From NCBI RefSeq assembly GCF_004125265.1, contig NZ_RDTE01000003.1:310001-374000 (forward strand): a stretch of DNA of 64,000 nt, in the 5' to 3' direction. This document shows, one piece after another, positions 1 to 59,432 of the stretch. The stretch's first letter is position 1; each line of letters begins with the position of its first letter. The DNA is from Streptomyces lydicus (GTDB lineage: Bacteria > Actinomycetota > Actinomycetes > Streptomycetales > Streptomycetaceae). The notes beneath the pieces were generated by a model that saw only the letters and a list, made by a program, of their open reading frames with translations, was not told where the DNA came from and searched no databases. Position numbers and translations under genes: made by a program.

Positions 1-1721
1 CGCGGCAGCCGCAGCGCGACGAGCTGTTCGGGGCCGGCGCCCCGGTCGATGAGGTGGTGGGCGAGCCGGTTGGCGCGGGCGTTGAGGGTGGCGTAGTCCA
101 GCGTGGTGTCCCCGGCCACCAGTGCCGTCGCGTGCGGGGTGCGGGCCGTCTGCGCCTCGAAGGCGGCGGGGTAGGTGGTGGGCTCGACGGGCAGTGCGGT
201 GTCGTTCCACTCGGTGGTCAGCCGGCGGTGTTCGCGCTCCGACAGCAGGGACAGTTCGCCCAGCGGGCGGTCCGGATCGGCCGCGATTTTGCCGAGCAGC
301 AGGACCAGTTGCCCGGCCATCCGCTCGGCGGTGGCGGCGTCGAAGAGGTCGGTGCGGTACTCCAGCAGGCCGGTCAGCCCGTCCCCGTCGGGGACGAACT
401 CGACACTCAGGTCGAAGGTGGCCGCGCGGCGGGGCACGGTGACGGCCTCGGCCGTGAGGTCCCGCAGGCCGGGGGCCGCGGGCGGGGCGGGGTGGAGCAG
501 GACCATGACGTCGAAGAGCGGGTTGCGGCCCGCCTCCCGTACCGCTCCCGCGGCCTCCACCACCCGCTCGAAGGGGGTGTCGCCATGGGCGAAGGCGTCG
601 AGGACGGCGGTGGCCGAGACGTCCAGCAGCTCGCGGTAGGAGCGCGCGGTGTCGACGGGGGCGCGCAGCACGACCGTGTTGACGAAGAAGCCGACCGCGC
701 GCTCCAGTTCGGTGCGTCCGCGCCCGGGGGTCAGCGAGCCGACGGCGATGTCGTCCTGGCCCGACCAGCGGGCGAAGAGCGCCTGGCAGGCGGCGATCAG
801 GGCCGCGAACAGGGTGGTGTGCTGCTGCGCCGCCACCTCCCGCAGCCGGGCCGCGGTGGCCGCCGGGACCCGGAACGTGTGGACCGCGCCGTCACCGGCC
901 TCCTCCCCGCTGCGGGGACGGTCGAGCGGCAGCGCCGGCGGCACGGCCCGGTCGAGCTGTTTGGTCCAGTAGGAGAGCTGTTCCTCCAGCAGGGCGCCGG
1001 ACAGCCGTTCGCGCTGCCATACGGCGAAGTCCGGGTACTGCGTCGCGACGGGGGCGAGGACAGGGGTCTCCCCGTGGACCAACGCGTCGTACAGCGTGCA
1101 CAGTTCGTCCAGCAGCACGCCCATGGACCAGCCGTCGGTGACGATGTGGTGCGCGGTGAGCAGCAGCACGTGCGCGTCGTCCGCCAGGCGGATCAGCAGC
1201 GCCCGCAGCAGCGGACCGGTGCGCAGGTCGAACGGGCGGGAGTACTCCGCCAGCAGCACCTCGTCCAGCGCTTCGGGGCCGCGCGGGGCCCGGTCCCCCG
1301 GGCCGGCCGCGGGGTCGGTCCCCTCCCCCACGTCACGCAGCGGCAGCGGCACGGGCGCGGCCGGGTGCACCTGCTGCACGGGGCGGCCGTCGATGTCGTC
1401 GAACGTGGTCCGCAGGGACTCGTGGCGCGCCACCACGGCGTCCAGCGCCCGGGACAGCGCGGGACGGTCCAGCGGGCCGGTCAGCCGCAGGGCGACCGCG
1501 CTGTTGTAACGGGAGTCGCCGGGCCGGAGCTGGTCCAGGAACCACAACTGCTGCTGGGCGAAGGCGAGCGGCAGGGGCTGCGACCGGTCCGCGCGCGGGA
1601 TCTGCTGCCGGGCCTTTGCGGCGGCCGGCGGGGCCCCTCCCGCCAGGCGGCGGCGCAGCGCCTCCTGCAACTCCTGGGGCAGGGCCGCGGCACGGTCCTT
1701 CTTCGAATGCGAAGACGTCAT
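1..1721 (-). CDS. NRPS, module 6 (C-A..., 3' end outside window)
   Basis: Second peptide synthetase of the line, continuing past the left edge, so only about 573 residues are visible. It starts at ATG 1721, 11 nt after the stop of the five-module NRPS, which implies translation from one transcript. After a short charged N-terminus comes a condensation domain (about residues 45-480) with an intact HHIVTDGWS active-site motif (about residue 195). Its wording matches LCL-type domains, which accept an L-configured donor. This agrees with module 5 upstream having no epimerase. The beginning of an adenylation domain follows (from about residue 525), reaching only the first core motifs. Specificity cannot be read. 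The chain-release step and the total number of modules lie outside the window. Confidence 0.93.
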   Translation of the reverse strand, partial: MTSSHSKKDRAAALPQELQEALRRRLAGGAPPAAAKARQQIPRADRSQPLPLAFAQQQLWFLDQLRPGDSRYNSAVALRLTGPLDRPALSRALDAVVARHESLRTTFDDIDGRPVQQVHPAAPVPLPLRDVGEGTDPAAGPGDRAPRGPEALDEVLLAEYSRPFDLRTGPLLRALLIRLADDAHVLLLTAHHIVTDGWSMGVLLDELCTLYDALVHGETPVLAPVATQYPDFAVWQRERLSGALLEEQLSYWTKQLDRAVPPALPLDRPRSGEEAGDGAVHTFRVPAATAARLREVAAQQHTTLFAALIAACQALFARWSGQDDIAVGSLTPGRGRTELERAVGFFVNTVVLRAPVDTARSYRELLDVSATAVLDAFAHGDTPFERVVEAAGAVREAGRNPLFDVMVLLHPAPPAAPGLRDLTAEAVTVPRRAATFDLSVEFVPDGDGLTGLLEYRTDLFDAATAERMAGQLVLLLGKIAADPDRPLGELSLLSEREHRRLTTEWNDTALPVEPTTYPAAFEAQTARTPHATALVAGDTTLDYATLNARANRLAHHLIDRGAGPEQLVALRLP

Positions 1722-1732
1722 GTCGTCGTTCC

Positions 1733-4700
1733 TCACCGTTCGTTGTGGTCGCTGGTGCCGCGTGCGGCGTCTTCGAGTTCGCGCAGGACGTGTTCCTCCA
1801 CCAGGTCCGCCAGGACGGCGACGGTGCGGGCGGTCAGCACGTCCCGGGGGGTGAGCTCCACGCCGAAGGTCTCGTTGACCCGGGAGGCGATGAGCAGGCT
1901 GCGCAGCGAGTCGCCGCCGAGGGCGAAGAAGTCGTCCTCGGCGCCCACGGCCGTCCCCAGTGCCTCGGACCAGACGTCCGCGAGGAACTGCTCGGTGGGG
2001 GTGCGCGGGGCGACCTGGGCGGCGGGCTCGTGCGGGTCGGGCCCGGGTGCGGGCAGGGCCGCGCGGTCGGTCTTGCCGTTCTCGGTGAGCGGGAAGCGCT
2101 CCAGGACGACGAAGGCCGAGGGGACCATGTGGCCGGGCAGCGTCCGGGCGGCGAAGGTGCGCAGCTCCGCGCCCGCCGGGATCCCGGCGTCCGGTGCGGC
2201 GAGCAGGTGGGCCACCAGGCGCGGCGCCCCGGGCTCGTCCTCCCGTACGGACACCACCGCGTCCCGGACGGCGGGATGGGCCGCCAGGGCGGCCTCGACC
2301 TCCCCTGCCTCGATCCGGTGCCCGCGCAGCTTCATCTGGTGGTCGGTGCGGCCGAGGTAGTGCAGCTCGCCGCGGGCGTCGCGGCGGACCAGGTCGCCGG
2401 TGCGATACATCCGCTCGCCGGGCGCGCCGTACGGGTCGGCGAGGAACCGCGTGGCGGTCAGGCCGGGACGGTGGAGGTAGCCGCGGGCCAGGGAGGTTCC
2501 GCTGATCCACAGTTCGCCGGGGACCCCGTCGGCGACCGGCCGCAGCCGCCCGTCGAGCACATAGCTGCGGCTGCCCGCGCGGGGGTGTCCGATGGGCGGT
2601 GCGGCGCCGTCGGGCACCAGCGGTCCCGACCAGGTGGCGACGACCGTGGCCTCGGTGGGCCCGTAGGAGTTGATCATCCGGTGGTGCGGGGCCCAGCGGG
2701 CGACCAGGTCGGCGCCGCAGGCGTCCGCGCCGACGATGAGGGTGCGCAGGTCCGGCAGGGCCCCCGCGGTGGCGGGCGGCACCGTGGCGAGCGCGGCGGG
2801 CGGCAGCAGGGTGTGGGTGATGCGTTCCGCGCGCAGCACCTCGGCCAGCTGCGCGCCGAGCAGCGGTCCGGGCGGCGGCACCACGAGGGCGGCGCCGGCC
2901 GGCAGGGCCATGCACAGCTCCAGTACGGAGGCGTCGAAGCTGGGGGTGGCGAAGGCCAGCACCCGGTCGCCCGGCCGTACTCGGTAGTGGTCGGCCTCAG
3001 CGGCGGCGAAGGCGGCCAGGCCGCGGTGGGTGACGACGACGCCCTTGGGGGTGCCGGTGGAGCCGGAGGTGTAGATCACGTAGGCCGGGTCGTCGAGGTC
3101 GAGCGGGCGGACGCGGTCCCGGTCGGTGGGCCGGGGGGCCGGTGCGGTGTCGTCCCCGGCGGCCAGGAGGTCGTGGACCTCGGCGGCCTCCAGGGTGACG
3201 GCGGGTGCGGCGTCGCGCAGCATCACCGCGATCCGCTCGGCCGGGTACCCGGGGTCCACCGGCAGGTAGGCGGCGCCCGTCTTGGCGGTGGCGAGCTGGG
3301 CGACGACCATGTCGGCCGATCGCGGCAGGACCAGGGCGACGAGGTCGCCGGGGCCGGTCCCGAGGGTGAGGAGGTGGTGCGCGAGGCGGTTGGCCCGCGC
3401 CTCCAACTGCGCGAAGGAGAGTGAGAGTTCGGGTGCAGTCACCGCTTGGGCGTCGGGCCACCGGTCGACCGCCGCCTCGACGAGCGCGGCGAGGGTGGCG
3501 GCCGGGACCGGGTCACCGGCCACCGGGTCACCGGCCGTCGGGGCACCGCGCCCGGTCAGCCGCTCGCGCTCGTCCGGCGGCAGGATGTCGATCCCGTCCA
3601 CGGTCGTCGCGCCGCCGGGTTCCGCCAGGGCACCCAGGGTGTGCACCAGCTGGGCGGCCAGGGACCGGGCGGTGGACTCCTCGAAGTACCGCGGGTCGTA
3701 GCCGAGTTCGACGCTGAGGCGGGTGTCGGGCGAGATCACCACGGTGAGCGGGTAGTTGGTCGCCTCCAGGGCGTGCAGGTCGCGGACGCTCAGGCCGTGT
3801 GCGGTGGCCGCGGTGTCGTTGATCGGGTAGTTCTCGAAGACCACCAGGCTGTCGAAGAGCGGTGCTCCCGCGGGCAGTTCGCTCCAGCCCCGCAGGTCGG
3901 ACAGCGGGACGTGGTCGAAGCCGCGGGCGTCGGCCTGGGCGGACTGCAGAGCGCCCAGCCAGTCGGCCGGGGCCGCGCCGCCGTCCACGTCGCACCGCAC
4001 CGGCAGGGTGTTGATGAACAGACCGGTGATGGCGTCCGCGCCGGGCAGGTCGGCGGGCCGGCCGGAGACCGTCGTACCGAAGCACACCTCGCGCTCTCCG
4101 CTCCAGCGCGCCAGCAGCAGGCCCCAGACCCCCTGGACGACGGTGTTGAGGGTGAGGTGGTGGCGCCGGGCGAAGTCCTGCAGCGCGGCGCTCTCCCGCT
4201 CGCCCAGCCGCTCGGAGAGCCAGGTGCCGGCGCGGGTGGCGGCGCCGGGTGCCGGACGGCGGTCGTAGGGCAGCGGGGTGGGTGCGGTCAGGCCGGCCAG
4301 CGCCGTGCGCCAGTGGTCTTCGGCGGGGGCGGTGTCGTGGGCGGCGAGCCAGGCGGCGTAGTCCGCGAACGGCCGGCGGTCGGGCAGGTCCGGGGCCTGG
4401 CCGCGGGTCAGCGCCGCATGGCAGGAGAAGACGTCCGAGAGGACCTGGAAGACGCTCCAGCCGTCGAGCAGGACGTGGTGGAAGGTCCACACCACCCGTA
4501 CCTCGGCCGGGGAGAGCCGGATGAGGGTCAGCCGCAGCAGCGGCGGCCGGTCGAGGGCGAGCCCGCGGTCCCGGTCCTCGGCGAGCAGCCGTGCCAGTTC
4601 GGTATCGCGCCGCTCCGGCGTCAGCGCGCTCCAGTCGAGCTCGGTGACGGGCAGGGCGACGGAGCGGTGGACGGTCTGCAGGGGCAGAGGCACCTCGTGC

Positions 4701-7700
4701 AGCACCACCGCGCTGCGCAGCACGGGGGTGCGGTCGACGACCTGCTGCCAGGCGGCGGCCAGCAGGTGGGGGTCGGTGACGCCGTCCAGGACGAAGGTGG
4801 CCTGTTCCACGTAGAGCCCCTGGTCGGGTTCGTCGAGCCCGTGGAAGACCATGCCGGTCTGGGTGGGCGTCAGCGGGTAGACGTCCGTGACGTCCCGGCC
4901 GTCGCCGACGAGCCGGTCGACGCTCTCCTGGTCGAGGCGGACCAGCGGGAAGTCGGAGGGCGTGCGCCCGCCGGCGTCCGGCTCCGCGCAGTGCCGCACG
5001 ATCTCCCGCAGCTCGGCGGCCATCTCCTCGGCCAGCCGGGCCACGGTGGTGCGCAGGTGCAGGTTCTTCGAGTACGACCAGGTGAATTCCAGCCGCTTGT
5101 CCGCCACCATGCCGACGATGTCGATCAGCTGCGGCCGGTCGGCCGCCCGGTCCATGTCGCCCTCCAGCGCGCCGTACGGTGCGTGCAGCAGGCCGTCGCC
5201 GCCGGACGCGCTCCAGTCCTGCTGGCCGAGATAGTTGAAGGCGATCTGCGGATCGGCCGGCAGCCCCGGGGCCTCCGGAGTGCGCAGGTGACGCAGCGCA
5301 CCGTGTCCCAGGCCGTGCCCGGGCAGCGCCCGCAGGCCCTCCTTGGCGGACTTCAGCGCCGTGGCGAGGTCCGCGTGCGGCGGGAGGTCCAGCGCGACCG
5401 GGAACATGGTGGTGAACCAGCCGACGGTGCGGGAGAGGTCGATGTCGTCGAAGATCTCCTCGCGGCCGTGGCCCTCCAGCCCGATCCGTACCCGGTCGTG
5501 CCCGGTCCAGCGGGCGAGTACCCGGCCCAGGGCGCACAGCAGGACGTCGTTGACCCGGGTCCGGTAGACCTCCGGGACGTCCTGGAGCAGCCGGCGGGTC
5601 TCCTCGGCCTCCAGGCGGACGGTCACGGTGTCCTCGGAGTCCGCACAGTTGCGGCCCGTGTGGTCGGTGGGCAGCTCCGTCAGGCCGTCCGCGGCGCTCC
5701 AGTGGGCGAGTTCGCCGTCGAACCCGCCGGCCGTGGTGTGGTCGTGCAGCCGCTGCGCCCAGGCCCGGAACGAGGTGGTCTTGGGGCCGAGCGCGGCCCG
5801 TTCCCCGGCGCGCACCCGGCCGTAGGCGGTGTCGAGGTCTTCCAGGATGATGCGCCAGGACACCGCGTCGACGACCAGGTGGTGGGCCGCCAGCAGCAGG
5901 ACCGGGCGGTCCTGGTCACCGAGGTGGCACAGCACGGTCTTCAGCAGCGGCCCGGCCGCGAGGTCGAAGCCCGCGCACAGTCCGGCCGTCAGCGCGCGCA
6001 GCTCCGCGGCGCGGTCCTGCGGCTCCAGGCGGGCGAGGTCGCGGACCTCCAGGGCGGGGGCCGCACCGGGCGCCGCGGTGTACTGGCGCCAGTGGCCGCC
6101 GCCGGTGGGCTCGTACACCGTGCGCAGCGCGTCGTGGTGCTCCAGCACCGCGGCCAGGGCGGCCCGCAGCGCGTCCTCGTCGACCTCGGCGGCCAGTTGG
6201 AAGGCGAGCGACTGGGTGAAGTGCCCGGGGCTGTCCGGGACGCTGTCGAACAGCCAGTGCTGGACGGGCGTGAGGGGCACCTCGCCCACCACCGGGCCCT
6301 GTTCGGCGGTGGACGCGATGGCCGGCAGCTGCGCCGCGGCCGCGGCCAGGGCGGCGACGGTCTGGTGGACGAACAGATGGCGCGGGGTCAGCGCGAGTCC
6401 GGCGCGGCGGGCCGCGGAGACGATCTGGATGCTGAGGATCGAGTCCCCGCCGAGCGCGAAGTAGTTGTCCTCGGCGCCCACCCGGTCCACGCCCAGCACC
6501 TCGGCCCAGATGCCGGCGAGCGTCCGCTCGGTTTCCGTGCGCGGCGGGACGTAACCGGCGGCCGGGGCGGCCCAGTCGGGCGCCGGCAGGGCACGCCGGT
6601 CGAGTTTTCCGGTGGCGCCCAGCGGCAGCCGCTCCAGGGGGACGACGACCGCGGGGACCAGGTGGTCGGGCAGGCTCCGGGCCAGGAAGGCACGCACCGC
6701 GGCGGGATCGGCGTCCGCCGCACCCCGGGTGACCACGTACCCCACCAAGCGTTTGTGGCCGTCGGTCTCGACGACCCGGGCGGCGGCTTCGGCCACCTCG
6801 GGGTGCCGGGCCAGCGCGGCCTCGACCTCACCGAGTTCGATGCGGAAGCCGCGCACCTTGACCTGGTCGTCGCCCCGGCCCAGGTACTCCAGCTGTCCGT
6901 CGGCGTCCCAGCGCACGAGGTCGCCGGTGCGGTACATCCGCTCGCCCGCGGGGCCGAACGGGTCGGCCAGGAAGCGCCGGGCGGTCAGTCCGGGCCGCGC
7001 GAAGTAGCCGCGCGCCACACCGGTCCCGGCGAGGTAGAGCTCGCCGGGCACACCGACGGGGACCGGCCGCAGGTGCGGATCGAGGACATAGGCGCGGGCG
7101 CCGGCGACCGGGCTGCCGATCGGCGGCGTGCGGTCGGGATCGGCCGGGTCGCAGTACCAGGCGGTGGCGTAGACGGTGGCCTCGGTGGGGCCGTAGATGT
7201 TCGCGACCCGGCAGCCGGGGACGGCGGCGCGGACCTCCCGTACGGTACGGGCCGCGAGCCCCTCGCCGGCCAGCACCACGGTGTCCGCCGTGACGTGCAC
7301 GGTGTCCTCGGCGAGCAGCTGGCCGAGGGCGGAGGGGACGGCGCTGAGCAGGCTCGCGGTCCAGGGCGCCGAGCGTTCGGCGAGGGCCAGCAGGTCGCTC
7401 ACGATCTCGACGCAGCCGCCGGACAGCAGCGGGCTGAAGATCTCGAAGACCGACACATCGAAGTTAAGCGAGGTGGACGCCACGACGTGGGACAGGCCCC
7501 GGCCGCCGAACTCGCCGGCCGCCCAGTCGGCCAGGGCGACAACGGACCCGTGGGTGGCCACCACGCCCTTGGGCAGGCCGGTGGAGCCCGAGGTGTGGAT
7601 GACGTAGGCGGGGTGGGCGGGCAGCAGCGCGCCGGTCCGCTCGTCGTCGCCGAGGTCGGCGGCCGACTGCCCGGCGAGCCGGTCCGCGGTCGCGGGGTCG

Positions 7701-10700
7701 TCGAGCGCGATCCGGGTGGCGGGCCCCTCGGGCAGCCGGCCGGCCAGGGCGGCGGTGGTGAGCACGATGTCCGGTCCGATGTCGTCGAACAGGAAGGAGA
7801 CGCGTTCGGACGGGTACTTGGGGTCGACCGGCAGGTAGCCGGCGCCGCTCTTGAGCACGGCCAGCAGGGCCACGATCAGGTCGGTCGTGCGCGGCAGGGC
7901 GAGGGCGACGAACCGCTCGGGGCCCGCGCCCGAGGCGGTCAGCAGCCGGGCCAGCCGGTTGGCGCGCTCGTTCAGCTCCCGGTAGGTGAGCCGGTCGTCG
8001 CCGGACAGCACGGCGGTGGCGTGCGGGGTGCGGTCCGCCTGCTCCTCGAAGACCTGGGGCAGGACGCGGCGTGGCTGTGCGACGGCCGATCCACCGAACT
8101 CCCGCAGGATGCGCCCGCGTTCGTCCGTGGTGAGGAGTGGCAGGTCGCCCAGGCGGCGGTCCGGGTCGGCCGCCATCTCCGTCAGCAGGACCCGCAGGCA
8201 GGCGCCCAGCCGCTCGACGGTCGCCGCGTCGAAGGCCGCCGGGTCGTAGTCCAGGGCCACGGTGAGGCGTTCACCGGGGGCGACGATCACGCTGAGCGGG
8301 TAGTTGGTCGGCTCCAGGTCGCGTTCCTGCTGGATGCCCAGGCCGTGCCGGGCGAGGGCGCCGCTGTCGAAGGGGTAGTTCTCGAAGACCACGATGCTGT
8401 CGAAAAGGCCGGTCCCGCGCGGGACTTCGCTCCAGGACTGGAGCTCGGCCAGGGAGACGAAGTCGTGGCGGCGCGACTCCGACTGGGCGGTCTGCAGATC
8501 GCGCAGCCAGTCCAGCAGCCCGCGGCGCCCGTCGACCCGGACCCGGGTGGGGAGCGTGTTGATGAACAGGCCGACCATGGACTCCACCCCGGGCAGCGCG
8601 GCGGGCCGGCCGGAGACGGTGGTGCCGAAGACCACGTCGTCGCTGTTGCCGTAGCGGGACAGCAACAGGCCCCAGGCGCCCTGCAGCACGGTGTTCATGG
8701 TGAGGCCGGCGTGCTGCGCGGTCTCCCGCAGACGGGCGGAGTCCGCCTCGTCCAGGGTGACGTGGACCGAGCCCGAGGACGAGGCGCGGTGGGCCTCCAG
8801 GGGCCTCCGGTCCCGCGGGAGTTCGGTCGGTGAGGTGAAGCCGGCCAGCGCGGTGCGCCAGTGCCGCTCGGCCTGGGTGCCGTCCTGCTCCGCCAGCCAG
8901 CCCAGATAGCTGCCGAACGGCCGGCGGGAGGGGACCTCGGGCCGGCGGCCCGCGGTGAGCGCCGCGTACCGTTCGCAGATCTCGTCGAAGACCTGGGCCG
9001 CGCTCCAGCCGTCGAGCAGGATGTGGTGGAACGTCCACACCAGCCGGACCCGGTCGTCGGACAGCTTGATCAGGGCCAGCCGCATCAGCGGGGCGGCGGC
9101 GAGGTCGAGACCGGCCGCCCGGTCCTCGGCGAGCAGGGCGGTCAGCGCCTGCTCGGACGCCTCGGGGGTCCACCCGGACCAGTCGTGGTGGGTGACGGGC
9201 ACGGTGGCCCGCGTCTGGACGACCTGGAGCGGTTCGGCGGTCTCCGCCCACACCAGGCGGGTGCGCAGCATCGGGTTGGCGTCGGCCGTCTGCTGCCAGG
9301 CCGTGGCGAGCGCGGCCGGGTCGGTGACGCCGGAGAGCACCAGCTGGACCTGGTTGAAGTAGGTGTGGGAGTCGGGGTCCATCAGGCTGTGGAACAGCAT
9401 GCCCGCCTGCATGGGCGTCAGCGGGTAGATGTCCTCCACCGCGCGGCCGTCCGCCGCGACCCGGTCCACGGCCGCCTGGTCGAGGCGGGCGAGCGGGTAG
9501 TCGGAGGGGGTGCGGCCGCCGGCGTCCGGGCCGGCGCAGTGGGCGACGATGTCCTCCAGCGCCGTGAGCATGCCGGTGGCCAGTGCGGACACCGTCTCCT
9601 CGTGGTGCACTTCGCCGCTGTAGTACCAGGTGAGTTCGAGGCACCGGTCCTCGACCCGGCCCACCACGTCCAGCAGGTGCGGCCGGACGGACCCGGGCGC
9701 GTCGGCGCCGCCCAGTCCGCCGTGCACCGCCCGGATCAGCCCGCCGTCAGCGGACCAGTCGAACTGGCCGAGGTAGTTGAAGCTGATCAGCGGCTGCGGG
9801 GCGCCGGTGAGTTCGGCGGCTTGGGCGAGGTGCCGCAGCGCCCCGTGGCCGAGCCCCCGGCCGGGGACCGCGCGCAGCTGTTCCTTGACGGACTTCAGCG
9901 CCGCGGCCCAGTCGCCGCCCGGGACGTCCAGGGCGACGGGGAACAGGGTGGTGAACCAGCCGACCGTACGGGAGAGGTCGACGCCCTCGAAGAGGTGGTC
10001 CTCGCGGCCGTGCCCCTCCAGGCCGACGGCGACGGTGCGCTCGCCGGTCCAGTCGGCCAGCACCCGGCCGAGCGCGGTGAGCAGCACGTCGTTGATCTGC
10101 GTGCGGTAGACGCCGGGCACCTTCTGCAGCAGGTCGCCGGTCCGCCCGCGGTCCAGGCGGACGGTGACCGAGCGCAGGTCGGCGATGGTGTTGGTGCCGT
10201 CGGCGTCGACCGGCAGGGGGGCCGCGCAGTGCGGGGCCACCGCGCTCCAGTGCGCTCGCTCGCCGTCGAAGCCGCCGGCCTCGGTGTGCTCGTGCAGCAG
10301 GCGGGACCACTCCTGTACGGAGGTGGTCCGGGCGGGCGGTGTCACCGGGTCACCGTTGCGGGCCTGCCGGTAGGTGCTCTCCAGGTCTTCCAGCAGCACC
10401 CGCCAGGAGACACCGTCGACCACCAGGTGGTGGACGGTCAGGAACAGCCGCGGCGGCACGTCCCGGGCGCCGGTGAACAGGCGGGCGGCGAGCAGGGGGC
10501 CGGTGTCCAGCCGGAAGCCGGCGTGGGCCTCGGCCATGGCGGCCTCGACCGCGGCGGCGCACTCCTCCTCGTCCTTGCCGGCCAGGTCGTGTACGCGCAG
10601 CAACTGCGGTGCGTCGGCTTCCGGGGCCGGGCAGTGCTGGTGCCAGGTGCCGTCCGCCCGCTCCGTGAAGCGGGACCGCAGGGCGTCGTGGTGGGTCCAC

Positions 10701-13700
10701 AGGGTGTGCAGCGCCTGGTGCAGCGCCCGCGGTTCGGGCTCCTCGGCCAGTTCGATGACGAGGGACTGGTTGAAGTACCCCGGCTGCTGAGGCCGGGCGT
10801 CGAGGAACCAGTGCTGGATCGGGGTGAGGGCGACGTCCCCGGCCACCGGGCCGGTGCCGCTGAGGGGCGCGGCGGAGCCGGTGGCGGCGGCCAGGGCGGC
10901 GATGGTGGGGTGACGGAACAGGTCCCGCGGGGTCAGGGTCAGGCCCGCCCGGCGGGCGCGCGAGACGACCTGGATGCTCAGGATCGAATCGCCGCCCAGC
11001 ATGAAGAAGTTGTCCTCGACACCCACCCGGTCGAGGCCCAGCAGGGTGCACCAGATCTCCGCGAGGATCCGCTCGGCCTCGGTGCGCGGCGCGCGGTGCT
11101 CGCCGGCGGTGGCGGCCGACCGGTCGGGGGCGGGCAGCCGGCGCCGGTCCACCTTTCCGTTGCCGGTCAGGGGCAGTGCGTCCAGGGTCACGAACGCGGC
11201 GGGGACCATGTAGTCGGGCAGCTCGGCGGCGAGGTGGGCGCGCAGCTCCGGCGCCTGCGGCACCGTCGCCTCCGGGGCGGGGACGAGGTAGGCGACCAGG
11301 CGCTTGCGGCCGCCGTCCTCGGGGACGGTCACCACCGCTTCGGCGACGGCGGCGTGGCGGGTGAGCACGGCCTCGATCTCGGCCGGTTCGACGCGGAAGC
11401 CGCGGATCTTGATCTGGTCGTCGGCGCGCCCCACGAAGTGGAGTTCGCCGTCGGCGCTCCAGCGCACGATGTCGCCGGTGCGGTACATCCGGGTCCCGGC
11501 CGGGCCGAACGGGTCGGCCAGATAGCGTTCGGCGGTCGCACCGGGGCGGCCGGCGTAGCCGCGGGCGAGCCCGGCGCCGGCGACGTACAGCTCTCCCGGG
11601 ATGCCCGGCGGCTGGGGCTGCAGCGCGTCGTCCAGGACGTAGACGCGGGTGTTGTCCAGCGGGCGTCCGATGGGCAGGGCGGCGGGCAGCGGATCGCCGG
11701 CGCGGAAGGCCCGGCGGGTCGCGAAGGTGGTGGTCTCGGTGGGGCCGTAGCCGTCGACCACGGTCAGATCGGGGCAGGCGTCCAGGACGCGGCGTACGGC
11801 GGCGCCCGGCACGGCCTCGCCGCCGGTCCACACCTCGCGGGCGCCCCGCAGGCATGCGGGGTCTTCCTGGGACAGCAGGCGGAACAGCCCGGCGGTCAGC
11901 CACAGGCAGGTGACGCCCTGTTCACGGATCGCCCGGCGCACCGTGGTGGCGTCCACGTCGGCCGGCGGGGCGAGGACGGCCCGGCCGCCGCGCAGCAGGG
12001 GCACCCACAGTTCGTAGGTGGCCGCGTCGAAGGCCTGCGGGGAGTGCACCAGGACCCGGTCGTGTCCGTCGAAGGCGCGGTCGAAGGCGAGGGCCACGAC
12101 GTCCCGGTGGCGCACCGCGACCCCCTTGGGGCGGCCGGTGGAGCCGGAGGTGAACATCAGGTAGAGGGCGTTGTCGGGGTGGAGGGCGGGCAGGGGTGTG
12201 CCCTGCTCCGGGGCGGCGGCGCCGGCCGGTGCGGCCTCGTCCGTCACCAGCAGGGTGCGCCCGCCGGGTGCCGCCTCGCGGGCGGCCTCCTCCCAGGCGG
12301 CGTCGGTGAGTACCAGGTCCGCCGTGGTCTCCGCCAGCGCCTGCCGCAGGCGCTCCCGTGGCGCTCGCCCGTCCAGCGGGACGTACACGCCGCCCGCCTT
12401 GACGAGGGCCAGCTGGGCGATGACCAGGGCGGCCGACCGGTCCATGAGGACTCCGACCGGGGTCTCCGGACGCACCCCGAGCCCGGCCAGCCGACGGGCC
12501 AACGCATCGGTGCGGGCGTCGAGTTCGCGGTAGGTGAGCCGGGTGTCCCCGGCGTCCAGCGCCATGGCGTCGGGGGTGCGCCGGGCCTGGGCGGCGAACA
12601 GCTCGGCGACCGTGCCCTCGGGCAGCGGGGCGGTGGTGGCGTTCCACTCCTCGACGACCTGGCGGCGGTGTGCCGCGCCGAGCACCGGCAGCCGCGCGGG
12701 CGGGCGCCGGTCGTCCGCGGCCAGGCCCTCCAGCAGCACGGTGAGGTACTCCCCCATCCGCTCCACGGTGGCGGCGTCGAACAGTTCCGGGTCGTAGCCG
12801 AGGCGCAGGGCAAGCTCCTGGCCCGGGTAGGCGACCAGGCTCAGCGGGTAGTTGGTGGTCTCGATGCCGTCGAGACCGGTCAGCCGCAGCCCGTGCGCGG
12901 CGGCGAGGTCGCCGCCGACCGGGTAGTTCTCGAACACCACGATGCTGTCGAAGAGCGGGGCCCGCTCGGGCAGGTCGCAGAACGCCTTCAGCCGGGCGAG
13001 CGGGACGAAGTCGAAGCGCCGGTCCTCGGTCTGGAGCTCCTGCACCCGGCGCAGCCAGGCCGTCAGGGTGCCGTCGGCGGGGACCGTCAGCCGGGTCGGT
13101 ACGGTCGCGATGAACAGGCCGTTCATGGCCTCGACGCCGGGCAGCTCCGGCGGCCTTCCGGACACGGTGGTACCGAAGACGACCTCCCGGCGCCCCGTCT
13201 GACGGGCCAGCAGCAGCCCCCAGGCGCCCTGGACCAGCGTGTTCATGGTGAGGCCTGAGCTCTTGGCCAGCTCGTCCAGGCGGCGGGTGGTGGCGGCGGG
13301 CAGGGCGAGCCGTACCGCCGCGGTGGACTCCGCGCGGTGGGCCTCGCGGGGCTCGCGGTCGTAGGGCAGGGCGGTGGGCTCGCTCCAGCCGTCGAGCCGG
13401 GTCTGCCAGTGCCGTTCGGCCTCCGCCCAGTCGCGGCCCTGCAGCCAGGCCACGTAGTCGCGGAACGGGCGGCGGCCGGGCAGGCCCGCGTCCACGGGCG
13501 TGGCGCCGTCCGCTGCCGCGGTGCCGCGCAGCGCGGCGTGGCACCGGAAGACGTCGGACAGCACCTGGAACAGGCTCCAGCCGTCGAGCACCAGGTGGTG
13601 GAAGGACCACACCACCTGCACCTCGGTGTCGGAGAGCCGGGCCAGGGCCAGGCGCAGCAGCGGGGCGGAGTCGAGGTCGATGCCGCGCCGCCGGTCGCGG

Positions 13701-16700
13701 TCGAGCAATTCCTGCAGGGCGGCCCGTCGGTCGTCGTCCGGCAGGTCCCGCCAGTCCAGCTGCGTGACCGGCACGGTGACGCCGCGCTCCACCACCAGCA
13801 GCGGTTCGGGCACGTCCTGCCAGACGACGCGTCCGCGCAGCACCGGGGTGCGGTCCGTGACCTGCTGCCAGGCCGCGGCGAGGGCCTGCGGGTCGGGCAC
13901 GCCGTCCAGGACGAAGGTGAGCTGCTGGAAGTAGACGCTCTGGTCGTCCTGGGAGAGCCGGTGGAAGAGCATGCCGGCCTGGGTGGGGGTGAGCGGGTGG
14001 ATGTCCTCGACGGTGCTGCCGTCGCCCACCAGCCGGTCCACGGTGGGCTGGTCGAGCGCGGCCAGCGGGAAGTCGGAGGGGGTGCGGCCGCCGGCGCCGG
14101 GCCGGGCGGCGTCCCGGGCGATGTCGCCCAGCGCCCGGGCGAAGTGTCCGGCGAGCCGGGTGACGGTGTCCTCGTGGTGGAGGTTCGCCGAGTAGAACCA
14201 GGTGAATTCCAGCGCGTCGCCGTCCAGCCGGCCGACGACCTCCAGGGCGTGCGGGCGCGGCGCGGCGGGGTCGGCGTCCAGCGCCAGTTCGCGGTACGGG
14301 CCGCGGTAGAGGCTGCCGTCACCGCCCGGTGTGCCGAACTGGCCGAGGTAGTTGAAGCTGATGTCCGCGGTCGGGGTGGCGGGCAGGCCCTCCAGCCGGA
14401 TCAGGTGCCGCTGGACGCCGTAGCCGAGGCCGCGGCCCGGCACGGCGCGCAGCTGCTCCTTGACCGACTTCAGCACGGTGCACCGGTCGGCGTCCGGCGC
14501 CACGGTGAGGGCGACCGGGTAGCGGGTGGTGAACCAGCCGACGGTACGGCTCAGGTCGACATCGGGGAACAGCTCCTCCCGGCCGTGACCCTCCAGGTCG
14601 ACCGGGACCCGGTCGCGTCCGGTCCACTCGTGCAGCACCCGGCCCAGCGCGCTCAGCAGCACATCGTTGACCTGGGTGCGGAAGGCCCCGGGCAGGGTGT
14701 GCAGCACGGCGGAGGTGTCCGCCGGGGTGAGGCGCACGGTCACCGAGCGGGCCGACGCATAGGTGTTGGCGCCGGCGAGGTCGGCCGGCAGCGCCGGGTC
14801 ACAGGTGCGGGCGAGCGCCGTCCAGTAGGCCGTCTCGTCCTGGAAGCCGCCGGTTTCGGCGTGCCCGGTCAGCCGCTTCGCCCAGTGGCGCAGCGGGGAA
14901 GACTTCGGCGGCAGTGCGGCGTCCGCTCCCGCGCGCCGGGCGCGGTAGGCCCGGTCCAGGTCCTCCAGCAGCAGCCGCCAGGAGACGCCGTCGACCACCA
15001 GGTGGTGGACGGCCAGGTGCAGGACGGGCGGCAGAGTGGTGCCCCGGTCGTGGAGCACGGCGCGCAGCAGGGGGCCGTGGGCCAGATCGAACGGCCCGTG
15101 GTGCGGGGCGTCGTCGTCGGGGCCGGTGTGGCGCTGCAGCGTGAACCCGGGTGCCTCGCGGTCGATGTGCTGGCACCACCGGCCGTCGGTGTCCCGCACG
15201 AAGCGCGAGCGCAGGGCGTCGTGGTGGGCGATCACGTCGCGCAGGGCGGCTTCCAGGGCCGTGGCGTCGAGGCCGTCGGCGAGCTCGACGGACATCGTCT
15301 GAGCGAAGTGTCCGGCCCGCCCGGGGTCGGTCTCGAAGAGCCAGTGCTGGATGGGCGTCAGCGGGGCCGGTCCGGTGGCCTTGGCCTCGGGGTCCGGGCC
15401 CGGGGCCGGCTGCCCGGCGGCGTCCACGCACTGGGCGAGGGCGGCGACGGTCTGGTGCCGGTACACGTCGCGCGAGGTGACGGCCAGGCCGGCCTGCCGC
15501 GCCTGGGCGACGACCTGGATGCTGAGGATCGAATCGCCGCCCAGCGAGAAGAAGTTGTCGTCGACGCCGACGCGCTCGACGCGCAGGACCTCGGCCCACA
15601 CGGTGGCGAGCGCCCGTTCGGTCGCGGTGCGCGGCGCGGCGTAGTCCGCCGTACCGGCGGTCGTCCAGTCCGGGTCGGGCAGCCGGCCGCGGTCCAGCTT
15701 GCCGTTGGGGTTGAGCGGCATCGTGTCCAGGACGACGACCGTGGCGGGCACCATGTAGTCGGGCACACTGCGGCCGAGCAGCCGGCGTATCGCGCTCGGG
15801 ACGAGTTCCGCGCCGGGCGCCGGGACGACGTAGCCGATCAGCCGCTTGTGGCCGCCGCTCTCCCGGGTGGCGGCGGCCGCCTGGGCCACCCCCGTACAGC
15901 GCAGCAGCGCCTCCTCGACCTCGCCCAGCTCGATACGGAAGCCCCGTACCTTGACCTGCTGGTCGGCCCGGCCCAGATACTCCAGCTCGCCGTCGGTGGT
16001 CCAGCGCACCAGGTCGCCGGTGCGGTACATCCGGCTACCGGGGGCGGCGAAGGGGTCGGCGAGGAACCGGGTGGCGGTCAGGCCGGGGCGCCTGAGGTAG
16101 CCCCGGGCCAGGCCCCTTCCCCCGAGGTACAACTCGCCCGTCACGCCCGGGGGTTGTGGGCGCAGCATGCTGTCCAGGACGTAGCAGCGGGTCCGGGCGA
16201 CGGGCCGGCCGATGGGCGGGGCCTGCTCGGGGGTGTCGTCGTCGGCGAACCACGCCGTGGCGTACACCGTGGCCTCGGTCGGGCCGTAGATGTTGGCGAC
16301 CTGGGAGGACGGCATCGTCTCCCGGATCTCCCGTACGGTCTGCGCGGGCAGCGCCTCGCCCGCCAGGACCACCGTGTCGGCCGTGACGGCGGAGGTGTCC
16401 CGGGTGAGCAGCCGGGAGATCACCGACGGCACCCCGCTGAGCAGACCCGCCTGCCGCGGTGCGGTGCCCGGCCGGTCGGCGAGGGCCGGGAGGTCGGCCA
16501 CCACTTCGATGCTGCCGCCGGACAGCAGCGGGCAGAGCAGTTCGAAGACGGAGACGTCGAAGTTGAGCGAGGTGGAGGCCACCACATGCGTCAGCCGCTC
16601 CGGGCCGAACTGCGCTCCTGCCCAGGCCGCCAGGTCCGCCACGCTGCGATGCGTGACCACGACACCTTTGGGACGGCCCGTCGATCCTGACGTGTAGATG

Positions 16701-19700
16701 ACGTACGCGGGGTGGCCGGGGTCCAGAGGCCGGACCCGTTCGGCATCGGTGAGGTCGTCCTCAGTGTGCCCGGCCCACTCGTCCGCGGTGTCCGGGTCGT
16801 CCAGGAGCAGCCGCTCGACGCCGTCGGGCAGCGCGCCGGCCGTGTCCCGGGTGGTCAGCACGAGGGCCGGCGCGGCGTCGGTGAGCATGAAGCGGATGCG
16901 CTCGGCCGGATAGCCGGGGTCCACCGGCAGATAGCCGGCGCCCGCCTTGAGCACCGCCCACAGGACGGGGACCAGGTCGGCCGAGCGCGGCAGGGCCAGC
17001 GCCACCAGGGTCTCGGGTCCCGCCCCACGGCGGACCAGCAGCCGGGCCAGGCGGTTGGCGCGCCGGTTCACCTCGTCGTAGGTGAGCTGGGTGTCCCCGC
17101 AGACCACGGCGGTCCGCCCGGGAGTCCGACGGGTCTGCGCCTCCAGGAGCTCGGGCAGGGTGGTGTCCGGGCCCTCCTGCTGCGGGGCGTTCCAGGCATC
17201 GAGCATGGTGCGCCGCTCGTCGTCGGTGAGCAGCGGCAGTTCGGCGACGGTCCGCTGCGGGCCGTCCGCCATCCCCTCCAGCAGGAGGTGCAGCTGACGG
17301 CTCATCCGGGCCACGGTGCGGCCGTCGCACAGGTCGGTGTTGTACTCGACGGTCAGCCCGAAGGACCCGTCGCCGCGCGGCAGGAACTCCAGCACCAGGT
17401 CGAACCGTGCGGCCGGGCGCGGCAGCGGATGCTCCTCGATCCGTACGCCGCCGGCTTCCTGCGGGTGCACCATGGCGGTCTGCTGGACGACCAGGACCTG
17501 CACCAGCGGGGTGCGGCTGGGGTCGCGCTGCGGGGCCAGTTCCTCGACGACCCGGTCGAAGGGGACGCCGTCGTGGCTGAAGGCGTCCAGCAGCGTCGCC
17601 CGCACGCTGTCCAGGAAGTGGTCGACGGTGGCGGCGGGGTCGACATCGCTGCGCAGCACCAGGGTGTTGACGAAGAAGCCGGTGACCTCCTCCAGTTCGC
17701 GGTGGGTGCGCCCGTTGGTGACGGTGCCGAACACGATGTCGCGCTGGCCCGAGTAGCGGGAGAACAGCACCGAGGCCGCCCCGGCGAACAGGGTGAAGAG
17801 GGTCGTGCCCTTGGCCCTGGCGAGTGCGCCGAGGCGTTCGGCCAGGTCGGCCGGCAGGTCGTGGCGGTGTGCCGCGCCGGCCGTGGTGCGCACCGGCGGC
17901 CTGGGCCGGTCCGTGGGCAGGTCGAGCTGCGGCAGACCGGTGAGGTGCCGCCTCCAGTACGCGAGGTCGGCGGCGTCCCGGTCCGGGGCGGGGTGGGCGC
18001 GCTCCCACACGGCGAAGTCGGGGTACTGGAGGACCGGTTCTGCCAGGCCGTCCGGGCTGCCGTCCGCCTCGGCCGCGTAGAGCGCGGCCAGTTCACGGAC
18101 CAGTACGCCGACCGACCAGCCGTCGGTGACGATGTGGTGCTGGGCCAGGAGCAGCAGATGCTCCTCGTCGGCGAGCCGGACCAGCAGGGCCCGGGTGAGG
18201 GGGCCCTCGCGCAGGTCGTAGGGGGTCTCCAGCTCCTCGGCGAGCAGCCGCTCGGCCGCCGCGTCCCGGCCGTCCGCGGGGAGGGCGCCGAGGTCGACGG
18301 TGCGCAACGGCAGGGCGGCGGTGCCGTCGACGCGTTGCACACCGCGCCCGTCCACCGTGGTGAAGGTGGTGCGCAGGGAGTCGTGGCGGGCGGCGAGCCG
18401 GTCCAGGGCGCGGCGCAGCGCGGCGGCGTCCAGCGGACCGCCCAGGCGCACCCCGACGCCGGTGTTGTACTCGGAGTCGCCGGCCGTCAGGTCGTCGAGG
18501 AACCACAGCCGTTGCTGGGCGCCGGACAGCGGCAGCGGACGGTCGCGCGGGACCGGGGTGATCGGCGTCGCCGGGCCCGTGGTGTCCGGGTCGCCGAGGA
18601 GCGGCACCAGTGCGGCGATCGTCCGGGCGGTGAATAGGTCACGCACGGACAGCCGGTCGCCGAGCTCTTCCCGGATCCGGGACAGCACCCGCACTGCGAG
18701 GACGGAGTCGCCGCCGAGGTCGAAGAAGTCGTCGCCGGTGCCGATGGTGCGCACCGACAGCACCTTTGACCAGATGCCGGCCAGGGTCCGCTCGGTGGGT
18801 GTCCGGGGGGCGATGTGGCCCGCTTCCGGGGCGCGGGCCGGTTCGGGTGCGGGGAGCGCCCGCCGGTCGATCTTGTGGTGTGCGGTCAGCGGGAACGCGT
18901 CGAGGACGACGACGGCGGAGGGCACCATATGGGCCGGCAGGCTGCGGGAGACCACGGCGCGCAACTCCGCGGGCTGCGGGGCCCGTACGGGATCGACCGG
19001 GGTGACGTAGGCGACGAGCCGCTGCCGCCCGGGCTCGTCCTCGCGGACGATGACCACGGCTTCACCGACCCGGGGGTGCCGGGCCAGCGCCGTCTCGACC
19101 TCCCCGGGTTCGATGCGGAAGCCGCGCACCTTGACCTGCCGATCGGCCCGCCCGAGGAACTCCAGTTCACCGTCATCGTTCCGGCGCACCAGGTCCCCGG
19201 TGCGGTAGAGCCTGCTGCCGGGCGGTCCGTACGGGTCGGCGACGAAGCGCGCGGCGGTCAGCCCCGGGCGGCCGAGGTAGCCGCGTGCCACCCCGGTGCC
19301 GCCCACGTACAGCTCTCCGCCCACTCCCGCCGGCACCGGCCGCATCGCCGCGTCCAGTACATGGACCCGGGTGTACGGCAGCGGTGTGCCGATGGACGGG
19401 GTGCCGCCGCCCACGGCCAGCGGCCCGGTCCAGGACGCGACCACCGTGGCCTCGGTGGGACCGTAGGAATTGATCAGCCGGCGCCCGGCCGCCCAGCGGT
19501 CGGCCAGCTCGGCCGGGCAGGCTTCGGCTCCCACGATCAGGGTCCGCAGGTCGGGCAGGCCGTGGTCGTCCGCCGGGGCCGGCACGGTCGCGAGCGCGGC
19601 CGGCGGGATGAGCGCATGGGTGATGCGGTGGTCCGCCAGGACGGCCGCGAGCTCTTCGCCCAGCCACGGCCCGTCGGGCGGTACGACGAGAGTCGCCCCC

Positions 19701-20389
19701 GCCAGCACGGAAATGCAGAGCTCCAGGACGGAGGCGTCGAAGCTCGGGGAGGAGAACTGCAGGACGCGGGCGCCCGGCGTGACGTCGTACTGCTCGGCGG
19801 CCGCCGCGGCGAAGGGGCCCAGTCCCGCGTGGGGCACCGTCACCCCTTTGGGAGTGCCGGTGGATCCCGAGGTGTAGATGACGTAGGCGGGGTGCTCGGC
19901 GCACAGCGGCGCGAGCCGGTCGCCGTCCTGCGGCGCACGGTCCGGGCCCGTGGGGGGCCGGGTCTGTGCCAGGTCGTCGATGACCGCGGCCGGCCGGGCG
20001 TCGGACAGCATCAGGGCGCGGCGTTCGGCGGGGTAGGCCGGGTCGATGGGCAGGAAGGCACCGCCGGCCTTGGCCACGGCGAGTTCCGCGATGACGAGTT
20101 CGACCGAGCGCGGCAGTACCACCGCCACCGTCCGCTCCGGCCCCACCCCGCGTCCGATGAGGTCGTGCGCGAGACGGTTGGCCAGCCGGTCGAGCTCGCG
20201 GTAGGACCAGGTCAGTCGCCCGTCCGTCACCGCGGGCGCGTGCGGGGTGCGGACCGCCCAGGCGGCGAACAGGTCCCCGAGCGGGACGCCGGGACCCGGG
20301 CGGACCGGGCCGGACCCGGGGACCGGGGGAACGGCCCGGTCCTGCGGCGAGGCGGACTCCGGGGCTGAACTTTCGTGCTGGTCCGTCAT
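1733..20389 (-). CDS. Five-module non-ribosomal peptide synthetase, A-T-(C-A-T-E)x3-C-A-T
   Basis: Giant NRPS of 6,218 residues. Landmarks read from the translation (approximate residues): A1 (SGSTGTPKG ~177), T1 (GGDSV ~558), C2 (HHIVTDGWS ~754), A2 (~1237), T2 (GGDSI ~1615), E2 ([10 protein letters not shown] ~1800), C3 (HHLVLDGWS ~2267), A3 (~2750), T3 (~3130), E3 (~3325), C4 (HHILLDGWS ~3790), A4 (~4268), T4 (~4645), E4 ([10 protein letters not shown] ~4840), C5 (HHVLLDGWS ~5305), A5 (~5776), T5 (GGDSL ~6153). There is no starter C domain and no TE. C3-C5 follow E domains and look DCL; C2 follows no E and looks LCL. Manual binding-pocket codes: A1 and A5 D-A-L-L-I-G-S-V-V, A2 and A4 D-V-F-S-V-A-I-V-Y, A3 D-A-Y-W-W-G-G-T-F. 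The A3 code is valine-like; I do not assign the others. RBS AAGGA precedes ATG 20389. Confidence 0.95.
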
Positions 20390-20540: not shown

Positions 20541-21896
20541 TCAGGCGGTGACGGTACGGCGGGCCGTGCGGCCGGAGATCTGGACGCGGTCGATGGCGCC
20601 GCTCTCCGGGTCGCGCACGAAGCGTCCGCCGGGATGGCGGCGGCCGGACGCGGGATCCACCAGGTCACAGGTGAGATCCGGGTAACAGACCAGCGGCGCG
20701 GGGGTGTCGCCGTTCACGGTCAGCGTCAGGGAGCCGTCGGCGTCCGCCGCGACCCGGTATTCGACGGTGCCGTTGTGGTAGGTCCCGGCGCACTGGGGAA
20801 GGGCGACGGCGCGGCCGCGCTCGGGCGGGCGCGCGGCCGAGGGGACCTGCACTCCGGTGATCCGGTCGAGGTCTTCGGCGAGTTCGTGCCACAGCGCGGT
20901 GCCGTTGTTGGCGTTGCTGGTGAAGGCGACCACCGTGCCGCTGTCCGGTTCGGCCCGCAGATGGCAGGAGGTGCCCTGGGCGTTGCCGTCGTGGCCGCAC
21001 CACTGCTGGGCGCCCTGCTGGAAGAGCGCGAGGCCCAGGCCCCACGCGTCCGCCAGAACCCCCGGGGCGGCGCCCGGTACGGGGCGGCGCATCTCCTCGG
21101 CGGCGTCGGGTGTCAGCACCGTGCGGGGGCCCTGTCCGATCAGGGCCCGGCCCAGTGCCACCAGGTCGAGCGCGCTCGCCAGCAGGGCACCCGCCGGGGC
21201 CTCCACCGGTGCCAGGTTCTGCTGCACCGGAAGCACACGGCCCGAGGTCGTGTTCACGGAGTGGCCGACGGCCACCGGACGTGTCGTCTTGCGGTCGCCG
21301 AGGAAGGCGGGAACGGTGCCCAGGGGCTCCAGGAGCAGCGCCCGCACGGCATCGCTCCAGGTCATGCCGGTCACCGCTTCGATCAGCCGGCCGGCGGCGA
21401 CATACCCGGCGTTGGAGTAGGAGAAGCCGCTGCCGGGCGCGCACACCGTGTCCCGGCCGGCACAGTGCGCGGACAGGTAACGGGCGGGGGTCAGCGCCGC
21501 CGCGTCGTCCGAGTCGGGCCCGGTCGGGAGCCCGCCGGTGTGGCTGAGCAACTGCCGTACGGTGAGGTGGGGCGCCCGCCGCAGCTCCGGCACATGCGTG
21601 CCGACGAGATCCGTCAGCGCGAGGTCACCGTCGTCCGCCAGGAGCTGGACGACCGCGGCCGTGTAGGGCTTGGTGACGGAGCCCAGCGGCACCGCCGTGT
21701 CCGCGGTGAACATCTCGCCGGTGGCGTTGTCCGCCTCGCCCGTCTGGACGGTGTACGTCACCGAGTCGACCTGTACGGCGAGTTGGGCTCCCGGCACCTG
21801 GTGGGCACGCGCGAGCGTGTCCAGGCGCTCTTGTAAGAGGCGACGTATGTGGGTCGGCTGCCGGCTCGCGATCTGAGCACTCGAAGCTTGCGGCAT
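20541..21896 (-). CDS. PBP/beta-lactamase-fold hydrolase, probable trans-acting NRPS cyclising thioesterase
   Basis: Serine hydrolase of the beta-lactamase/penicillin-binding-protein family, 451 residues. The catalytic motifs are SVTK (S73, K76), YSN (Y160-N162) and a GHDG in place of the usual KTG. A C-terminal beta-rich region (about residues 345-451) resembles the lipocalin-like domain of SurE-type enzymes. ATG 21896 has a good GGGAG ribosome site; a GTG at 21965 is a weaker alternative. No signal peptide is visible. That argues against a secreted D,D-carboxypeptidase and for a cytoplasmic enzyme acting on carrier-bound peptide. It lies directly upstream of an NRPS that shows no TE and starts with a bare A-T module, the setting of PBP-type thioesterases of the surugamide/desotamide class, which make head-to-tail macrolactams. 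The alternative is an unrelated esterase or resistance hydrolase. Confidence 0.66.
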   Translation of the reverse strand: MPQASSAQIASRQPTHIRRLLQERLDTLARAHQVPGAQLAVQVDSVTYTVQTGEADNATGEMFTADTAVPLGSVTKPYTAAVVQLLADDGDLALTDLVGTHVPELRRAPHLTVRQLLSHTGGLPTGPDSDDAAALTPARYLSAHCAGRDTVCAPGSGFSYSNAGYVAAGRLIEAVTGMTWSDAVRALLLEPLGTVPAFLGDRKTTRPVAVGHSVNTTSGRVLPVQQNLAPVEAPAGALLASALDLVALGRALIGQGPRTVLTPDAAEEMRRPVPGAAPGVLADAWGLGLALFQQGAQQWCGHDGNAQGTSCHLRAEPDSGTVVAFTSNANNGTALWHELAEDLDRITGVQVPSAARPPERGRAVALPQCAGTYHNGTVEYRVAADADGSLTLTVNGDTPAPLVCYPDLTCDLVDPASGRRHPGGRFVRDPESGAIDRVQISGRTARRTVTA

Positions 21897-58718: not shown

Positions 58719-59432
58719 ATGGCGACCTACCTCTACGCCATCACCGGCGCGGAGCACCCCTTGCAGCTGTCCGACGTCACCGGTGTCGGTGACCCCGCGG
58801 CACGGCTGCGCACCGTCAAGACCAAGGACCTGTGCGCGGTGGTCAGCGACGCACCGGACGGGCTGCGGGCCAAGCGCCGCGATGTGGCGGCCCACCAGAG
58901 CGTCCAGGAACGGCTGCTTGCCGACGGTGCCGCCCTCCCCATGCGCTTCGGGCTGATCGGCCCCGACGACGCGCAGGTGGTCTCCGCCCTGCGGGAACAC
59001 CGCGACACCTACACCCGGCGCCTCAAGGAGATCGACGGCTGCCGCGAGTACCACCTCAAGGTCGCACGCGACGAGGACGACCTGCTGCGGGAGATCGTGC
59101 GGGAGTCCGCCGAGGTACAGCAGCTCAACGACCGTACCCGGCAGAATCCGGACGCCTACGACGCCAAGGTGGCCCTGGGCGAGCTGATTGCGCAGGAGGT
59201 CGAGGCCCGCCACGACCGCGCCCGTACGGACATCGTGGCCCGGCTGGCTCCGGCCGCGGTGCGCAGTGCGAACGCCGAACCGACGAAGCGCCATTTCCTC
59301 AATGTGTCGTTCCTCGTCGAACAGGAGAAGGCGGCGGCGTTCTCCGAGGCGGTCCATACGGAAGCCGGGCAGCGCACAGACGCCTACACCTTCAGTCTGC
59401 ACGGCCCGCTGCCGCCGTACAGCTTCGTCTGA
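58719..59432 (+). CDS. gvpF: Gas vesicle protein GvpF (operon 2)
   Basis: GvpF of 237 residues, starting 2 nt after gvpA. Landmarks are TYLYAITGAEHP, LPMRFGLIGPDD, EYHLKVARDEDDLL, FLNVSFLVEQEKAAAF and the ending HGPLPPYSFV. It lacks the basic tail of the operon-1 GvpF. Accessory protein binding GvpA before shell growth. Confidence 0.94.
   Translation: MATYLYAITGAEHPLQLSDVTGVGDPAARLRTVKTKDLCAVVSDAPDGLRAKRRDVAAHQSVQERLLADGAALPMRFGLIGPDDAQVVSALREHRDTYTRRLKEIDGCREYHLKVARDEDDLLREIVRESAEVQQLNDRTRQNPDAYDAKVALGELIAQEVEARHDRARTDIVARLAPAAVRSANAEPTKRHFLNVSFLVEQEKAAAFSEAVHTEAGQRTDAYTFSLHGPLPPYSFV

Follow-up and report, generated by a model that had tools for sequence, protein, structure and literature searches.

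We describe a pair of collinear nonribosomal peptide synthetases (NRPSs) of Streptomyces lydicus (RefSeq assembly GCF_004125265.1; 9.24 Mb in three contigs), which very probably make a single head-to-tail cyclic decapeptide, with the ring closed by a stand-alone cyclase of the SurE type. The genes lie at the beginning of the analysed window, a stretch of 64,000 nucleotides of contig NZ_RDTE01000003.1 (hereafter C3), positions 310001-374000. NRPS1, which encodes the first five modules, is contained entirely within the window; NRPS2, encoding the remaining five, extends beyond it and was read from sequence fetched outside the window. The original prediction, made for NRPS1, was of a peptide built on a mirror plan, a-b-Val-b-a. 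The symmetry of the first five adenylation (A) domains was confirmed, although as a plan it covers only the first half of a decapeptide line, in which class a occurs three times, including A10. The sequences of NRPS2 and A10 rule out the mirror as the layout of the whole peptide.

Two synthetases and a putative stand-alone cyclase

Domains were called from Pfam scans (for the places of Condensation domains) and from sequence motifs, and A-domain codes were obtained by MAFFT alignment to residues 190-340 of GrsA, whose letters are identical to those of PDB 1AMU. NRPS1 has the module order A1-T1 / C2-A2-T2-E2 / C3-A3-T3-E3 / C4-A4-T4-E4 / C5-A5-T5 (T, thiolation; C, condensation; E, epimerisation), ending in a T domain with no release domain. 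The five codes of the original prediction match this alignment letter for letter, A1 being identical to A5 (DALLIGSVV, class a) and A2 to A4 (DVFSVAIVY, class b), and the three epimerases proposed for modules 2, 3 and 4 were all found there; Pfam and motif scans detected no E domain in modules 1 and 5. The third domain, expected to be valine-like, corresponds to DAYWWGGTFK, listed as the Val code of friulimicin PstD in PMC9113097. In a single alignment of ten 190-residue A cores, A1 and A5 are 66% and A2 and A4 67% identical, with 35-40% between classes inside NRPS1; in a pairwise alignment, A4 and A5 share 46% of their residues.

NRPS2 begins 11 bases past NRPS1 and comprises C6-A6-T6-E6, C7-A7-T7, C8-A8-T8-E8, C9-A9-T9 and C10-A10-T10-E10. 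Its codes are DTLDMGFID (A6, class c), DFWNIGMVH (A7), DTWNMGVVD (A8, class c'), DAFWWGGTF (A9) and DALLIGSVV (A10). A7 is one letter from DFWNVGMVHK, given as a Thr code in PMC9113097; A9 is one letter off A3, and A10 repeats the code of A1 and A5. Between A6 and A8, four of the nine code letters are different (core identity 62%); in relatives the number is one to four. By code, the full line therefore reads a-b-Val-b-a-c-Thr-c'-Val-a, with E domains at positions 2, 3, 4, 6, 8 and 10. No methyltransferase domain was found in Pfam scans of the two-gene line, and NRPS2 contains neither a thioesterase motif nor a Pfam thioesterase, its last domain being E10.

The C domains form two groups, {2,6,8,10} and {3,4,5,7,9}, which are 45-57% identical inside and 28-33% across. 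The former carries the motif P-L-[AS]-x-x-Q-Q-x-L-W-F-L and the latter P-L-T-P-x-Q-x-G-M; we take them to be the L-donor and the D-donor type, respectively. Members of the first group follow modules without an E domain and members of the second follow modules with one, and the match is exact. It provides independent support for D residues at positions 2, 3, 4, 6 and 8, and thus also for the predicted beginning of the chain, L-a, D-b, D-Val, D-b, L-a. A D residue is likewise expected at position 10, judging from the E10 domain and the type of cyclase.

The putative cyclase is encoded upstream of NRPS1, together with a cytochrome P450. It is a thioesterase (TE) of the penicillin-binding protein (PBP) type, whose best PDB matches are SurE (6ksu, E-value 2.3e-59) and Ulm16 (8fek, 4.1e-57). 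Residues 2-414 align to SurE residues 45-470, a span that includes the PBP domain as well as the lipocalin-like one, and the alignment to Ulm16 falls into three stretches. The catalytic residues S40 and K43 (SxxK), N129 (YSN) and H269 (HDG), together with Y127 of YSN, are invariant in 81/81 aligned TEs. According to PMC11735501, PBP-type TEs act in trans, and SurE accepts most L residues N-terminally and requires a D residue C-terminally, while some of its relatives accept a C-terminal Gly. The arrangement seen here is that of the SurE family: a lone TE gene stands beside an NRPS line that ends in an E domain, with no TE, and whose first module lacks an E domain, the configurations being deduced from the domains. 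Head-to-tail macrolactamisation by this TE is predicted.

The proposed product and its closest described counterpart

Taking the substrates of classes a, b and c from a published description of Streptomyces sp. H-KF8 (see below), class b probably corresponds to Ala, class c to Orn and class a to an aromatic residue (Ar). The ten modules would then load aromatic-Ala-Val-Ala-aromatic-Orn-Thr-Orn-Val-aromatic, with an MbtH protein assisting the A domains; the E domains would convert residues 2, 3, 4, 6, 8 and 10 to the D form, and the TE would close the ring between the C-terminal D residue and the N-terminal L residue. The expected product is cyclo[L-Ar, D-Ala, D-Val, D-Ala, L-Ar, D-Orn, L-Thr, D-Orn, L-Val, D-Ar], a side chain of which would presumably be oxidised by the adjacent P450. 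Since its charge and aromatic content would resemble those of tyrocidine, action on membranes is a fair guess. Left unchanged by the P450, the ring is calculated to give an [M+H]+ of 1159.61 with three Tyr, 1182.63 with one Trp and two Tyr, 1205.65 with two Trp and one Tyr, or 1228.66 with three Trp; a hydroxyl would add 15.99 and a cross-link would subtract 2.02.

The H-KF8 cluster, NRPS #1.8, was compared at the level of its description in PMC10788856. It is said to comprise two NRPS genes with ten A domains, one of them not part of a complete module, along with six E domains and a contiguous TE. The consensus peptide has D residues at 2, 3, 4, 6, 8 and 10; positions 2 and 4 are given as Ala, 3 and 9 as Val, 6 and 8 as Orn, 5 as Trp and 10 as Tyr, with 1 and 7 left open (PMC10788856). 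The S. lydicus line resembles it in gene and domain numbers, the contiguous TE, the six D positions, Val as residues 3 and 9, and the pairs of equal residues 2/4 and 6/8, the last pair holding here by A class only, with codes four letters apart. It differs in having one shared code at 5 and 10, where two different aromatics are assigned in H-KF8, and in its surroundings: nitro and sugar decoration and a 31-gene cluster were suggested for H-KF8 (PMC10788856), whereas beside the NRPS genes of S. lydicus only the P450, TE and MbtH genes were seen. The H-KF8 authors state that their product is unconfirmed and made synthetic mimics (PMC10788856), six of eight of which were antimicrobial according to a review (PMC12394500); for two NRPS clusters listed for that strain, the similarity to entries in MIBiG is 13% and 7% (PMC5312570). 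The H-KF8 cluster thus has, in substance, the same module order and a partly characterised product, and the claim that the plan was undescribed fails. No further description of the decapeptide plan was found in the open-licence literature, and no locus titled H-KF8 was present among the best 80 of 238 named loci.

Several observations weigh against the proposed decapeptide. No product is known from this strain, and the full nine-letter a and b codes were not found in the open-licence literature. A1, A5 and A10 share one code, whereas H-KF8 is reported with Trp at 5 and Tyr at 10; this may reflect a loose pocket, a different line in H-KF8, or wrong assignments. The codes of A6 and A8 are unequal, and the tail of A8, GVVD, is shared by DAQDLGVVDK, listed for Glu/Gln in PMC12283262, so that c' need not be Orn. 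In H-KF8 itself, Orn was predicted by PRISM and not by antiSMASH, which in turn predicted an Asp, position unstated, that is absent from the consensus (PMC10788856).

Substrates other than aromatic residues, Ala and Orn, for example a cyclic or otherwise unusual amino acid for class b, would accommodate some of these points, namely the unlisted a and b codes and the Glu/Gln-like tail of A8. In addition, the six letters DVFSVA recur in the literature on lunaemycins, aurantimycin, diperamycin and polyoxypeptin. Lunaemycins, aurantimycin and polyoxypeptin contain piperazic acid, and the title of a diperamycin paper names it. Against such substrates stand the assignments of Ala at 2 and 4 and of Orn at 6 and 8 in H-KF8, described as resting on predictions and tandem mass spectrometry (PMC10788856), as well as the neighbouring P450, TE, MbtH and permease genes, which by Pfam family are not makers of unusual amino acids, no search for precursor genes having been made beyond these. 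PDB searches with A1 and A2 returned the usual NRPS chains and gave no hint of a substrate. Taken together, we regard other substrates as unlikely and retain the aromatic, Ala and Orn assignments. On these assignments, it is conceivable, if distinctly unlikely, that the P450 links or oxidises the aromatic residues at 1, 5 and 10 (10 and 1 being adjacent over the closure), which would give a so far unisolated, bridged cationic ring unlike known SurE-cyclised peptides.

Conservation of the line and the probable origin of the mirror

The distribution of the cyclase was examined in 392 genomes of the genus, drawn from a larger group and including that of S. lydicus itself. A TE match with an E-value of at most 1e-60 was present in 53/392 genomes, and identity was at least 62% in 43 (own included). 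Among the named loci, i.e. the best 80 of 238 by cyclase likeness, 77 are from Streptomyces by title, the rest being from Streptantibioticus, Streptacidiphilus and Kitasatospora. SurE-type lines of 4-10 modules have been noted earlier in 166 organisms (PMC7459860). A search with SurE gave matches in 13/392 genus genomes (41-48% identical); no surugamide line turned up, and these matches were not followed further.

Assembly lines were read in stretches from 28 of 42 relatives and from S. lydicus, 29 in all, and all ten A domains were recovered in 23. The order abVbacTcVa was found in 21 of the 23 complete lines, and abVaacTcVa in G329 and G351. In the six incomplete lines (G391, G213, G279 and G181, read in part; G234 and G364, with nine A domains by motif, Val domain 9 being missed) the parts read fit the ten-module plan, with class a at position 4 in G391. 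Three code entries contain alignment gaps (A7 and A9 of G329, A9 of G109). E motifs were present at positions 2, 3, 4, 6, 8 and 10 and at none of 1, 5, 7 and 9 in 23/23 complete lines; VGWFT sufficed to find them in 19, while G164, G282, G111 and G093 have AGWFT at module 2 or 4 with unchanged spacing. The named loci gave the same picture: A1 reads DALLIGS[VI]V in 75/75 readable loci, A2 DVF..A.VY in 69/69 and A3 DAY[WF]WG..F in 68/68. These counts leave aside five loci without an A domain in the stretch and an unrelated edge match in L131; L160, in which no A2 was found, was counted for A1 only.

The adjacent P450 is less constant. A member of the same family was present in 64/81 loci, own included (63/80 named loci), some stretches being short. 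No such gene was detected next to the cyclase in L113, L128, L133, L136, L139, L143, L145, L146, L147, L155 and L159, with S. hygroscopicus, S. violaceusniger and S. iranensis among them; ten of these eleven (L113 excepted) have another pair of conserved genes, clusters 10 and 11, at that place.

Comparison of the complete lines also clarified the nature of the mirror. Both pairs, A1/A5 and A2/A4, are identical over all nine letters in only 6/23 lines. In G329 and G351, the cores of A4 and A5 are 94% identical, with only 41 and 43% identity between A2 and A4. When A4 and A5 of these two lines were compared in 50-residue steps, identity was 72-100% between about 200 residues ahead of the A3 motif and 250 residues past it, as against 36-68% before this stretch and 43-50% over the next 150 residues, the edges being sharp; the corresponding values were 21-76% in the S. 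lydicus line and G348, taken as controls. A piece of A5 was apparently copied into A4 in G329 and G351, and by code also in G391, which would represent a natural exchange of A-domain sequence within one line. In G329 and G351 the A5 piece apparently replaced that of A4 and so broke the mirror. In 200,000 random orders of {3a,2b,2c,2V,T}, the first five positions were palindromic in 1.9%, and a five-module palindrome occurred anywhere in 11.3% of linear and 18.3% of cyclic orders. Taking into account the apparently copied A5 piece, the six lines with exact pairs and these random-order rates, the plan appears as the outcome of reused A cores and not evidently as a rule. The reuse of few A-domain types, with a at 1, 5 and 10, b at 2 and 4, c at 6 and 8 and Val at 3 and 9, accounts for the mirror, which is weak as a pattern; these types are likely to have spread through the copying of core sequences of A domains.

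One might instead suppose that the a-b-Val-b-a order has been kept by selection for a symmetric face of the peptide, as it is held at the level of A class in 21/23 complete lines. The remaining five positions are equally well conserved, however, exact nine-letter pairs are confined to the six lines mentioned, and position 4 has become a in G329 and G351 through the apparent copying of A5; such selection thus seems to us very unlikely. Still more remote, to the point of being hardly credible, is that NRPS1 acts alone and yields a mirror pentapeptide, or a dimer of it as with gramicidin S. Its loading module at the start and its five palindromic codes would suit this, but it ends in a T domain without a release domain, NRPS2 follows after 11 bases, its opening C domain belonging to the group found after modules without E, and the ten A domains keep their order across the 23 complete lines. 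We therefore prefer the ten-module line, of which the mirror is one half.

Relation to other peptides and genomic surroundings

The line shares with the surugamide/desotamide family its stand-alone cyclase, with full-length homology to SurE and Ulm16, and the expected C-terminal D residue, although the products differ; cyclosurugamide F is also a decapeptide. Gramicidin S and tyrocidine are head-to-tail cyclic decapeptides too. Gramicidin S holds Val and Orn. Tyrocidines contain aromatic residues as well as Val and Orn (PMC9219824). In TycC, a fused TE domain couples an N-terminal D residue with a C-terminal L residue, whereas the cyclase of the S. lydicus line belongs to a different family and the reversed chirality is expected; motif and Pfam searches found no fused type I TE of the gramicidin S/tyrocidine kind at the end of NRPS2, where the last domain is E. 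The lenziamides of Streptomyces sp. S063 are likewise NRPS-made cyclic decapeptides of the genus. They were rejected as the product, since reviews describe them as containing piperazic acid and as made by 13 NRPS genes with five N-methyltransferase domains, as opposed to two NRPS genes without methyltransferase here. No link could be established between the S. lydicus line and the 'NR decapeptide' of S. bambergiensis.

The coordinates of the features are collected in Table 1. An amino acid permease is also among the neighbours scanned with Pfam. A second P450 gene (51916-53124, + strand) lies about 30 kb from the NRPS genes, with no evident link to them. Gas-vesicle genes occur in two places of the window, GvpL/GvpF at 32527-33285 (-) and 58719-59432 (+), and a GvpA-type gene at 61701-62108 (+). 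Another large NRPS line of this genome, far from the window (C3:2080002-2122136), has an A domain with the code DVFSVAIVY among codes of a Gly- and Asp/Asn-like kind.

Table 1. Features of the decapeptide line (window positions, unless given as C3)
Feature	Position	Strand	Remarks
NRPS1	1733..20389	-	open reading frame, 6218 aa, ATG start
A1	18692..20290	-	DALLIGSVV, class a; loading module, no C domain ahead
A2	15518..17110	-	DVFSVAIVY, class b
E2	14093..15367	-	epimerisation domain; Pfam Condensation (C3:324093-325367); VGWFT, HHLVVDG
A3	10973..12568	-	DAYWWGGTF, Val
E3	9521..10843	-	epimerisation domain; Pfam Condensation (C3:319521-320843); E motifs
A4	6428..8011	-	DVFSVAIVY, class b
E4	4955..6286	-	epimerisation domain; Pfam Condensation (C3:314955-316286); motifs including HHLVVDA
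A5	1895..3487	-	DALLIGSVV, class a
NRPS2, part in window	1..1721	-	first 573 codons; C6 and start of A6
NRPS2, whole	C3:291445-311721	-	6758 aa, five modules; extends beyond window
Stand-alone PBP-type TE	20541..21896	-	SurE/Ulm16 family, Pfam Beta-lactamase; start at 21896 chosen; scored piece 20541-21797
Cytochrome P450	22080..23288	-	haem Cys motif
MbtH protein	C3:290993-291196		downstream of NRPS2, outside window

The mirror itself is of little note. The line to which it belongs represents a conserved and poorly characterised type, predicted to make a cationic cyclic decapeptide and common in Streptomyces, whose plan we found described once in the open-licence literature, for one marine strain. 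Half a pattern has become a concrete prediction: the product would be a cyclic decapeptide, cationic and amphipathic, and its cyclase subfamily occurs in 43/392 genomes sampled from the genus. Moreover, the apparent copying of A5 into A4 in relatives would provide a clean natural example of A-domain exchange, useful for the re-engineering of NRPSs.

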